Source: Moorella thermoacetica (lineage in GTDB: Bacteria; Bacillota; DSM-521; Neomoorellales; Neomoorellaceae). Taken from it: a DNA stretch of 64,000 bases. The notes beneath the pieces are model-generated. The model did not search any database. It was given only the letters and a program-made list of their open reading frames with translations, and was not told the DNA's origin. Position 1 is the first letter of the stretch. Each line of letters starts with the position of its first letter. This document shows, piece after piece, positions 37,322-40,932 of this stretch. Both the position numbers and the translations under genes were made by a program. The stretch is from NCBI RefSeq assembly GCF_001267405.1, contig NZ_CP012369.1, forward strand, positions 2,274,402 through 2,338,401. Direction: 5' to 3'.

Positions 37322-38749
37322 TTAAACATCATAATACAAAACGAACTCATAGGGATGGGGACGCAGCTTGATCTGGTTGATCTCCCGCTTTTGCTTGTAT
37401 TCAATCCAGGCGTTGATGAGGTCCTCGTCGAAGACGCCTCCCTGAAGCAGGAACTCGTGGTCTTTTTCCAGGGCGGCGATGGCTTCCTCCAGGGAGTCGG
37501 GCAGGGACTTCACCCTGGCCGCTTCTTCCGGCGGCAGGTCATAGATATCTTTATCCAGGGGCTCGCCGGGGTGGATCTTGTTCTTAATACCGTCCAGGCC
37601 GGCCATTAACAGGGCGGCAAAGGCCAGGTACGGGTTGCAGGAAGGATCGGGCGGCCGGTATTCGATCCTCTTGGCGGCCGGGCTGCTGGAGTACATGGGA
37701 ATGCGGATGGCCGCGCTGCGGTTACGCTGGGAGTAAACCAGGTTGACGGGGGCTTCAAAGCCGGGCACCAATCGTTTGAAGGAGTTGGTGGTCGGGCTGC
37801 AGAAGGCCGTCAGGACGGGGGCGTGTTTTAACAAACCGCCGATATAATACAGGGCCAGTTCGCTAAGCCCCGCATAACCATTGGCATCGTAGAAGAGGGG
37901 TTCGTTACCCTTCCACAGGCTCTGGTGGACGTGCATGCCCGAGCCGTTGTCCTGGAAAACCGGTTTGGGCATGAAGGTAGCCGTCTTATTATGCTTGATG
38001 GCCACATTCTTGACCACATATTTGAACATCATCAGCTGGTCGGCCATCCGGGTCAGGGGGGCGTACTTCATATCGATCTCGCCCTGGCCGGCAGTAGCCA
38101 CCTCGTGGTGATGGGCTTCCACGGCGATGCCCATCTGCTTCAGCAGCAGGACCATCTCCGTCCGCAAGTTTTGCAGGGTGTCGGTAGGTGGTACCGGGAA
38201 ATAACCTTCTTTATAGCGCGGCCGGTAGCCGAGGTTGGGATGACCGTTCATTTCCACGCCCGAGTTCCAGAAGCCTTCATCAGAATCCAGGAAATAGTAA
38301 CCAGCGTACTGGCTCTGGTCAAAGCGGACATGATCGAGGATAAAGAACTCGGCCTCGGGTCCCCAGTAACTGGTATCGGCAATGCCGGTCTCCTTTAGAT
38401 AGGCTTCAGCCTTTTTGGCCACAAACCGGGGATCGCGGTTGTAATTCTGCCCGGTCATAGGGTCGTAGACATTGCATACCAGGCTGAGGGTGGGCACATC
38501 ACAGAAGGGATCGATAAAGGCGGTATCGGGGTCGGGAACTAAGATCATATCGCTCTCGTTAATGGTTTTAAAACCGCGAATGCTGGAGCCGTCAAAACCC
38601 ACGCCGCTGGTAAAAGCGCCTTCATCGAATTCGTCTAAGGGCACACTGAAGTGCTGCCAGGTCCCTGGCAGGTCGATAAATTTGAGATCGACCATCTGGA
38701 TATTGTTCTTTCGGGCCATCTCAAGTACTTCGCCTGGTGTCTTACTCAT
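37322..38749 (-). CDS. glnA: Glutamine synthetase, type I
   Basis: 475 aa, the length of GSI-beta rather than the ~444-aa GSI-alpha usual in Bacillus. [23 protein letters not shown] (about residue 46), [10 protein letters not shown] (about residue 128), [18 protein letters not shown] (about residue 208), [14 protein letters not shown] (about residue 265) and NRSAAIRIP (about residue 340) are the metal, ammonium and glutamate sites. DIYDLPPEE near residue 400 carries a Tyr at the adenylylation position of GSI-beta. It makes glutamine from glutamate, ammonia and ATP. GAAAGGAG precedes ATG 38749. Controlled by the leader at 38757-39086. Confidence 0.96.
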
Positions 38750-38756
38750 GCCGGTA

Positions 38757-38940
38757 ACTCCTTTCCCGTGAGATCAAATTAAACTTTGGTAGCCCAAATC
38801 TAGGAGCAACAGGTACGGCTTTTTAAATAGCCTGCCGGTTGCTATTTTGGAGCCTCCTGCTGGTGTCGCATTAACGATACGGAGGTCTTGTTCTAAAATC
38901 GCTACCCAGGAACGCTACTATCCACCTCCTCCAGCAGGCC
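38757..38940 (-). other. Structured 5' leader segment between terminator and glnA
   Basis: After the terminator the minus strand reads CCTGCTGG (38937-38930) and much later CCAGCAGG (38862-38855), an exact 8-bp pair; inside it GGAGGT (38928-38923) pairs with ACCTCC (38886-38881). Further down AATAGC/GCTATT (about 38842-38825) forms another hairpin. No known riboswitch, T-box consensus or open frame was recognised. Confidence 0.45.
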
Positions 38941-38944
38941 TAAA

Positions 38945-38993
38945 TTAAAAAATAAAAGACGCCAACCAGGGGGTGTTATACCCCCGGGGCGTC
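38945..38993 (-). terminator. Regulated terminator in the glnA leader
   Basis: Minus strand GACGCC (38993-38988) pairs with GGCGTC (38963-38958), with an inner GGGGGT/ACCCCC stem, followed by TTTTATTTTTT. Its 5' arm overlaps the second hexaloop hairpin (38987-39000), so the two structures exclude each other. Confidence 0.8.
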
Positions 38994-39054
38994 TTTGCCC
39001 TTACAGACACTCATTGCCTTATTCAATTACAACTCAGCCGGACATCTTTGTCCG
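38987..39054 (-). ncRNA. Putative ANTAR-type antitermination element of glnA
   Basis: Two hairpins with six-base loops of the AnnGnn form. P1: CGGAC AAAGAT GTCCG (39054-39039). P2: GGGC AAAGAC GCCC (39000-38987). Both loops have A1 and G4, which ANTAR-domain proteins recognise. P2 shares bases with the terminator's left arm. The 38-nt linker contains a small 5-bp stem. No ANTAR protein gene lies in the window. Confidence 0.65.
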
Positions 39055-39060
39055 TTTATT

Positions 39061-39086
39061 ATAATATACCACCCCGCTGGTTTTGG
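39061..39086 (-). promoter_or_regulatory. Promoter of the glnA leader
   Basis: Minus strand TTGCCA at about 39088-39083, 17-nt spacer, then TATTAT near 39065-39060. Transcription would start about 39052, just before hairpin P1, giving a ~300-nt leader to glnA. Confidence 0.6.
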
Positions 39087-39152
39087 CAAGTAGAAAATTA
39101 AACCCGGTTTATTCGTTCGTTTCCCTTTAAGATACTATTTCCAGGCCAATCC

Positions 39153-40880
39153 TTATTTGGTCAATTCCCGGCTGAAAGCTACTTTGAACTCCCGGGGCTG
39201 GTCCAGGCGCACCAATTCCAGGCTCAGGCGGTCCAGGGTGGCAGGTGTTGGCCGGCCTTCTTCATCCCAGCCGCGACGGCGGTAATAGGCCGTAACCAGG
39301 CGTGGTAATTCAGTAAGGGGTCCGGCTGTAATCTCGCCTGCCTCGACACCCTCCCGCAGGAAACGCTCCGGCAGGGTATCGGCTTCCCGGCCCAGGCCTT
39401 CCCGCAGGTTAAAGGCCCGCTCCATGGTCAAGCTTCGTTCAGCCGCCCCCTTTAGGTCCTCCGGAGTTACCTCCGTACCTGTTACTGCCGTCATCATCTC
39501 AGCCATCTGTTCCAGGCTCAACCACCCGCCCAAGTAGGCAAAGAGGCAACCGACGCCTGTTTCCAGGGCTACCGTCGTTTCCTGGATGCGGCTTACCTGG
39601 CCCACCAGGTCTTCCCCTTCCCGGTCGGCGGCGAAGAGGCCGGCATGGAGGGCCTTGCCGTAGCAGTAACTACCCCCCAAGGCCGACACCACCATCCCCA
39701 GGCCGTGAAGGGGTCGCACCCTGGGGTCATAACCCGGCATCTCAATACCCTTGATGGTCATGGCGTATTCCCGGGCACCGGAACCAATATATGCCGCCAT
39801 ACGGTCCACGCCTTCCGCGAGAAGATCGCCGATACCGGCCCGGTAGGCTATCATGCGAATTAGCTCCATAGTGGCCTCCGGTCGCTCCCAGCCCAGGTCG
39901 AAGCCCTCCGCTTGCAGCAACCCCCTCTGCCGGAGCTCGTAGGCGAAGGCTATGCTGCCGCCGGTCGAGACCGTATCCAGGCCCAGGTCGTTACAGCGTT
40001 CATTGGCCATGGTCACCAGGTCGGGATCCAGGTGGCCCGGGTTGGCCCCCAGGGCCCAGTAAGTCTGGAACTCCGGCCCCTTGCGTTCCAGCAACCGCGG
40101 CAGATCGACCGGGTCGATATCCGCTTTCCAGGCCCCCTGGAAGTTACGGGTAGGTAGAATAGCCCCCTTCAGGGCTCCCGGCAAAGGCGCCCGGTGGTCC
40201 CGGCGTTCGACCAATTCCGCCTGACGGACCAGGATGCGCGACCAGAGGTCTTGCCTGGCTACCGGAACATCGGGTTCTGCTTCCACCACCAGGGCCTTGA
40301 GCCTTTTCGCCCCCATGACGGTGCCCACGCCCCCGCGGGCCGCCGTGCTATGGTCGCTAATAATGCTGGCGTAACGCACCAGATTTTCCCCGGCCGGGCC
40401 GATACAGGCCACCCGGGCCCCCTGGCCGTGGCGTCGGCGCAGTTCGGCCCGGGTATCCCCTGTACCCTTGCCCCAGAGGTCCCGGGCCGGCCGCAACTCC
40501 ACCCGTCCCCGGGGACCCAGGTAGAGGTACACCGGTTCCTCCGCGCGGCCCGTCAGGAACAGCATCTCGTACCCCGCGCCGTGGAGCCAGGCGCCGAAAT
40601 CGCTCCCGCCCACCGAGCGGAAAAAGCCGCCACTCAAAGGGCTTTTTGTTACCACCAGCCAGCGATTGACTCCCCTGGCCCCGCTGCCGGCCAGGGGCCC
40701 GGCAACAAAGATTAAAATATTCTCCGGGCCCAGAGGGTCTACCCCGGCGGTCCCTTCGCCGTAAAGGTAACGTGCTGCCAGGGGGCGGCCGCCGATAAAG
40801 TCCCGGCAGACCCGTGCCGGGATTTCTTCCTGGCGGATATTGCCGTCGCTTAAACTTACCCGTAAAATTTGCCGCTCCAT
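39153..40880 (-). CDS. Aldehyde ferredoxin oxidoreductase family protein lacking the CxxC cluster motif
   Basis: 575 aa from ATG 40880 (GTG 40889 possible). N-terminal AOR domain: YLYGEGTAGVDPLGPENILIF, GPLAGSGARGVNRWLVVTKSPLSGGFF, and the pterin-region SDHSTAARGGVGTVMGAKRLKALVV. The C-terminal domains follow (NERCNDLGLDTVSTGG at about 293-308). Canonical AORs have a Cys-x2-Cys-x3-Cys between TRNFQ and GPE(Y/F); here TRNFQ (244-248) runs to GPEFQTYWALG (268-278) in 19 residues with no Cys. The last conserved Cys region (VGCLFAYLGG) persists. It may bind the pterin without the [4Fe-4S] cluster. Confidence 0.88.
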   Translation of the reverse strand: MERQILRVSLSDGNIRQEEIPARVCRDFIGGRPLAARYLYGEGTAGVDPLGPENILIFVAGPLAGSGARGVNRWLVVTKSPLSGGFFRSVGGSDFGAWLHGAGYEMLFLTGRAEEPVYLYLGPRGRVELRPARDLWGKGTGDTRAELRRRHGQGARVACIGPAGENLVRYASIISDHSTAARGGVGTVMGAKRLKALVVEAEPDVPVARQDLWSRILVRQAELVERRDHRAPLPGALKGAILPTRNFQGAWKADIDPVDLPRLLERKGPEFQTYWALGANPGHLDPDLVTMANERCNDLGLDTVSTGGSIAFAYELRQRGLLQAEGFDLGWERPEATMELIRMIAYRAGIGDLLAEGVDRMAAYIGSGAREYAMTIKGIEMPGYDPRVRPLHGLGMVVSALGGSYCYGKALHAGLFAADREGEDLVGQVSRIQETTVALETGVGCLFAYLGGWLSLEQMAEMMTAVTGTEVTPEDLKGAAERSLTMERAFNLREGLGREADTLPERFLREGVEAGEITAGPLTELPRLVTAYYRRRGWDEEGRPTPATLDRLSLELVRLDQPREFKVAFSRELTK

Positions 40881-40932
40881 CAAAAACACCCCGCCAATAC
40901 TTTTCCTTTAGTATCGGCAGGGTGCTGCCGGC

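Follow-up and report, generated by a model that had tools for sequence, protein, structure and literature searches.

Structure of the glnA leader

The window, i.e., the whole 64-kb stretch of DNA analyzed here, carries on its minus strand the gene glnA (37322..38749), encoding a type I glutamate-ammonia ligase of 475 aa (TIGR00653, E 1.7e-204; PF00120 and PF03951), and, 198 nt upstream of this gene, an intrinsic terminator, AAAGACGCCCCGGGGG..CCCCCUGGUUGGCGUCUUU followed by the U tract UUUUAUUUUUU (38996-38947; stem 38996-38955, U tract 38957-38947). Three hairpins, written here with their loops in square brackets, are present on the same strand: P0, CGGAC[AAAGAU]GUCCG (39054-39039), in which loop positions 1 and 6 are able to pair; Pmid, AGGC[AAUGAGU]GUCU (39019-39005), with a loop of 7 nt that has A at position 1 (A1) and G at position 4 (G4); and P2, GGGC[AAAGAC]GCCC (39000-38987), the putative antiterminator. 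A sigma-70-type promoter, TTGCCA-17-TATTAT, is predicted at 39061..39089 (minus strand), from which the RNA is expected to start at about 39054-39056, so that P0 would lie at the very 5' end of the transcript.

The first-pass annotation had described two hairpins with AAAGAT and AAAGAC hexaloops, each with A1 and G4, and a strong terminator sharing left-arm bases with the second of them; these correspond to P0 and P2, both with stems of at least 3 bp, and the left arm of the terminator does begin within the loop of P2, making P2 and the terminator mutually exclusive. The same annotation remarked on an unusually long linker of 38 nt containing its own stem. This length, the stem-to-stem distance between P0 and P2, is correct and falls outside published spacing, but the linker stem seen in the minimum free energy fold was dropped since its sequence is not conserved, and the conserved stem of the linker is a different one, Pmid, which had been missed. 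A short linker between two hexaloops was therefore not found, as Pmid lies close to P2 (4-5 nt) but has a 7-nt loop. The region between the terminator and glnA (38750-38946) is about 100 nt longer in the window and in genome G013 than in other Moorella, and includes an inverted repeat, GGCCTGCTGG...CCAGCAGG (about 38929-38850).

Regarding stability, the fold of 39060-38945 has an energy of -42.4 kcal/mol (z = -4.3; 0/200 shuffles), most of which is supplied by the terminator. At 37°C the terminator is predicted at -23 to -26 kcal/mol vs. -6.1 kcal/mol for P2, and since it is far more stable than P2, termination would be the default without a stabilizer. At 58°C the predicted energy of Pmid is -0.1 kcal/mol, so that the hairpin would scarcely be stable; the host organism is probably a thermophile, and Pmid would be marginal at growth temperature, with its stability depending on protein. 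A register-shifted P2 obtained from co-transcriptional folds was dropped, as it is absent from some species.

Both strands of the 64-kb window were scanned for two ANNGNN hexaloop hairpins of at least 4 Watson-Crick pairs each, at most 45 nt apart and with a terminator overlapping the second, and P0/P2 with its terminator was the sole match; 20 dinucleotide shuffles gave a mean of 0.35 hexaloop pairs and no pair with a terminator. Rfam covariance models (riboswitches, T-box, glnA RNA, and others) did not match the leader at the gathering threshold or at E ≤ 1, and detected only tRNAs in the whole window.

Conservation of the leader in Moorella

An alignment of the glnA leaders of eight Moorella genomes revealed conservation of the leader in all of them; relatives with GlnA of about 90% identity include Moorella stamsii and M. 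sulfitireducens. Over the three hairpins, 97.9% of cells are paired vs. 26-50% in slid controls, with G005 slightly misaligned in the middle stem. The stems of P0 and P2 show base changes on both sides, and this covariation supports them as RNA hairpins; the second pair of P2, for example, is G-C in two genomes and A-U in six, while its loop AAAGAC is invariant (8/8). The distance between P0 and P2 is nearly constant in the eight genomes (37-40 nt).

Pmid was found 4-5 nt upstream of P2 in all eight genomes, in the form given above in the window, as CGGC[GAUGCAU]GCC in most others and as CGGC[GAUGUU]GCCG in G005, with a loop of 7 nt in seven of the eight. Its columns are invariant in 8/13 cases vs. 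1/24 in the spacer upstream (eight genomes; Fisher p 2.5e-4), its stem survives G-C/G-U changes, and its outer pair is A-U in two genomes, C-G in one, and an unpaired C-A in five. Within the loop, AUG is conserved, with its G at position 4. G4 is in fact present in 24/24 loops (three hairpins, eight genomes), and A1 in the loops of P0, Pmid, and P2 in 7/8, 2/8, and 8/8 genomes, respectively. The AnnGnn-type hairpins of the first-pass annotation are thus kept in the leaders of relatives, the exception being one Moorella (G005) with G for A at position 1 of the P0 loop; the Pmid loop of G005 likewise begins with G. Positions 1 and 6 of the P0 loop covary as a pair, A-U in seven genomes and G-C in one, and the loops of both P0 and Pmid can be closed in all eight genomes (A1-U6 and R1-U7, respectively), so that neither is a clean open hexaloop.

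The ANTAR response regulator and related leaders in the same genome

The ANTAR reading of the first-pass annotation called for a cognate regulator elsewhere in the genome, and exactly one clear ANTAR domain was detected in the single-contig genome of 2,527,564 bases (E 3e-23; G000:C1:1230756-1230914). The gene sits between two further glnA genes, glnA1 and glnA2, upstream of gltB-type genes, with no kinase gene adjacent to it, and encodes a protein of 208 aa with a receiver domain (8-115) and an ANTAR domain (134-186), for which the closest solved structures are Rv1626 (1s8n) and EutV (6wsh). Aligned to EutV, the phospho-acceptor Asp of the receiver domain is conserved, and, among the positions for which RNA-contact roles have been described in EutV (PMC8934654), Arg142, Lys143, Lys149, Glu160, Tyr164, and Met172 are kept, Lys147 is replaced by Arg and Asn173 by Asp, and Arg168, Arg175, and Arg177 differ. 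Upstream of the ANTAR gene (L001:2060-2140, minus strand) lies a hairpin GGGC[GACGGC]GUCC, whose A1 form takes its place upstream of the ANTAR gene in G008 (L203/L224), and its position suggests that the regulator may control its own gene.

Similar leaders were detected at other nitrogen genes of this genome, forming a regulon of candidate sites for the only ANTAR protein. Two of them are canonical dual-hairpin attenuators: the glnA1 leader has GGGAGC[AACGUG]GUUCCC followed after 8 nt by GGC[AAAGAA]GCC, and the leader of a PII gene has GCAAGC[AGUGUA]GUUUGC followed after 6 nt by GGGU[GAAGAA]GCCC, each with an overlapping terminator. The glnA2 leader, directly downstream of the ANTAR gene, contains a single hairpin overlapping a terminator, AGGGC[AACGGC]GUCCU. 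A dual-motif covariance model, the seed of which includes glnA1 and excludes the PII leader, ranked glnA1 first (E 4.7e-10) and the PII leader second (E 6.6e-4) in the whole genome, and also detected related leaders across the family; own-genome R2 matches with E > 0.04 were regarded as chance, with the exception of that at glnA2 (E 0.4), and one weak R2 match, L156, falls within a coding region. In relatives the PII-type leader precedes an ammonium-transporter-like gene. At L155:1501-1846 of the own genome PII alone follows the amt/PII-type leader, at a distance of 345 nt, as would be expected after loss of the transporter gene. The hexaloop motif is absent from the leader of the fourth glnA; leaders of this type (L152, L153, L146, L148, L149) share another conserved hairpin, GGCGUCC...GGGACGC, with UUUC after it. 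A search of the own genome with the pattern GGNCAAAGAYGNCC was dropped, its match count being about that of the backwards control and the two exact sites of the window not being listed.

Regarding the single hairpin of glnA2, a near-invariant GGGC[AACGGC]GUCC overlapping a terminator lies upstream of glnA2 in 12/12 loci of the family (own genome: L159:1400-1620, G000:C1:1230631-1230644). In other Bacillota (L197-L225) the same hairpin precedes glnA, amt-like, gltB-like, asnB-like, and ANTAR genes, and is often clustered. The 60 nt upstream of the hairpin contained no G4 hairpin in 11 of the 12 family glnA2 leaders, and within this distance the copy of the window's genome has only the 3-bp GCU[CAAGAU]AGC. 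An ANTAR gene was present in 9/9 sampled genomes with GGGC[AACGGC]GUCC vs. 23/41 without it (Fisher p 0.011, not corrected for relatedness), and in seven of those nine the exact hairpin stands at a recognizable nitrogen or ANTAR gene. This hairpin is a candidate single-hexaloop ANTAR attenuator and may be the type of single-hexaloop site called for by Walshe et al. (PMC8934654).

Distribution in sister genera

A three-hairpin covariance model was run against 22 genomes of the class and matched in full only in the eight Moorella that carry this glnA; its weak match in G016 (E 0.0099) is a two-hairpin leader. In two sister genera, the orthologous glnA leaders are canonical, with two hairpins. 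The glnA leader of G016 reads AGGGC[AAGGGA]GUCCU-12 nt-AGGC[AAAGAA]GCCU, with a first hairpin almost identical to P0 of Moorella, and that of G003 has CGGC[AAUGGA]GCC upstream of GGC[AAUGAA]GCC, with a first hairpin resembling Pmid. An ANTAR gene is present in 10/10 family genomes carrying this glnA (E ≤ 1e-150). The draft assembly of G015 contains a canonical dual-hairpin glnA leader (L186, G015:C2:24695-24737) but yielded no ANTAR gene, which may reflect either a gap in the assembly or a lost regulator. The glnA of the window differs from the three other glnA genes of its genome, and in a genome-contig scan its nearest relatives beyond Moorella were found in cyanobacteria, proteobacteria, and other phyla (55-64% identity).

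Proposed mechanism and alternative explanations

Given a single ANTAR response regulator in the genome and hairpins that are kept in relatives, antitermination is the best reading of the leader, and glnA would, as first suggested, be controlled at the level of transcription elongation. The dual-hairpin ANTAR pattern originally proposed is thus well supported by the sequence in its ANTAR part and incomplete in its two-hairpin anatomy. We consider it likely that the leader attenuates transcription of glnA and that the only ANTAR response regulator of the genome reads it, most likely with Pmid in the role of first hairpin and with P0 as an extra. By default, the nascent leader would fold the strong terminator and transcription would halt upstream of glnA. 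The regulator, phosphorylated presumably when nitrogen is limited, would dimerize, and the dimer would bind the hexaloop-type hairpins as they emerge and keep P2 closed, thereby denying the terminator its left arm and allowing the RNA polymerase to proceed into glnA. The recruiting hairpin would most likely be Pmid, and P0, an earlier hairpin of the same type at the RNA 5' end, would be additional to it, giving a three-hairpin variant of the mechanism.

Pmid is favored over P0, with moderate confidence, because the 4-5 nt between Pmid and P2 fit published spacing while the 38 nt between P0 and P2 do not. In curated actinobacterial ANTAR sites the linker measures 2-25 nt. In eut leaders it measures 5-12 nt, a 14-nt linker drastically lowers induction (PMC3369931), and extension by 20 nt abolishes antitermination in vitro (PMC8934654). 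Regarding the Pmid loop, G4 is the essential contact in EutV and A1 is not contacted, being thought to aid folding of the loop, so that G at position 1, as in the Pmid loop of most genomes and in G005, would be tolerable. A further reading, which is tentative and in our judgment less likely than not, is that of a relay, in which an ANTAR dimer would be recruited by P0 as the RNA emerges and handed to Pmid and then to P2; this would extend the model of successive binding put forward by Walshe et al. (2022; PMC8934654).

Alternatively, P0 and P2 could form the working pair, with Pmid as a mere spacer that folds the 38-nt linker and brings both close. In the window, the two exact A1/G4 hexaloops belong to these hairpins, the distance between them varies little in the eight genomes, and P0 closely resembles the canonical first hairpin of G016; however, longer linkers abolish antitermination in the eut system, folding Pmid out would still leave about 19-23 + 4-5 nt between P0 and P2, and the conserved AUG with loop G4 in Pmid exceeds what a spacer needs. 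In addition, the conserved pair between positions 1 and 6 may turn the P0 loop into a tetraloop and so make P0 a poorer ANTAR site. P0 and P2 are thus probably not the working pair, and this explanation is regarded as unlikely. Still less probable is that the terminator is governed by RNA refolding or another factor, the hexaloops being coincidental, with P0 (AAAGAUGUCCGGCU) pairing with the 3' arm of the terminator or with a fixed level of read-through: P0 does pair with this arm in a fold in which P2 is forced, and P0 and P2 have the string AAAGAY in common, but in other Moorella the pairing would depend largely on G-U pairs, and refolding explains neither the conservation of G4 in three loops of eight genomes nor a regulon in which similar leaders are linked to the genome's sole ANTAR gene.

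The hairpin might also be no more than the terminator of the upstream gene on the same strand (39153-40889), which ends here, as its location between two same-strand genes would allow. The promoter-like site between that gene and the hairpins, whose -35/-10 region aligns in 8/8 Moorella leaders, argues against this, as do the different upstream regions found before the same leader in other Moorella, which indicate that the leader belongs with glnA; we regard this explanation as very improbable.

Comparison with known ANTAR systems

ANTAR attenuators were predicted in 2012 at nitrogen genes, including those of glutamine synthetase (PMC3369931, PMC3369936). The predicted attenuators of Desulfotomaculum and others share the gene theme and the mechanism with the leader described here and occur in related bacteria, but are described as two tandem stem-loops (PMC3369931) rather than three hairpins. 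The eut leaders of Enterococcus faecalis read by EutV/EutW (Ramesh et al., 2012, PMC3369931; Walshe et al., 2022, PMC8934654) likewise combine a REC-ANTAR regulator with A1/G4 hexaloop hairpins, the last of which overlaps an intrinsic terminator, whereas the Moorella leader has three hairpins instead of two, a middle loop of 7 nt, and glutamine synthetase as its target. The NasR/nasF and AmiR/amiE leaders also have a dual hexaloop with an overlapping terminator (PMC3369936), but their regulators differ in the input domains. A single RNA with more than two G4 hexaloops is known in the EutX/rli55 sRNA, with its additional single hexaloop (PMC8934654); this RNA sequesters EutV and does not simply attenuate a biosynthetic gene.

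The mechanism is thus known and the three-hairpin leader is the new part; no description of such a leader was found in the text of the papers cited here. It is not settled in what way an ANTAR dimer makes use of two hairpins. According to the crystal structure, a single dimer is unable to hold the two simultaneously, and it has been proposed that the dimer is recruited by the first hexaloop and then passed on to the second (PMC8934654), a proposal that the three-hairpin leader fits. One ANTAR protein with natural one-, two-, and three-hexaloop leaders in one genome would offer a ready-made test. If the relay were true, then, taking into account the single-hexaloop attenuators at glnA2 and elsewhere, the same regulator would use one, two, or three hexaloops, giving different sensitivities for different nitrogen genes. 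Regarding nitrogen control in acetogens, the leaders provide a concrete model in which a single regulator acting at the level of transcription elongation would be common to glnA, PII/amt, and a second glnA.
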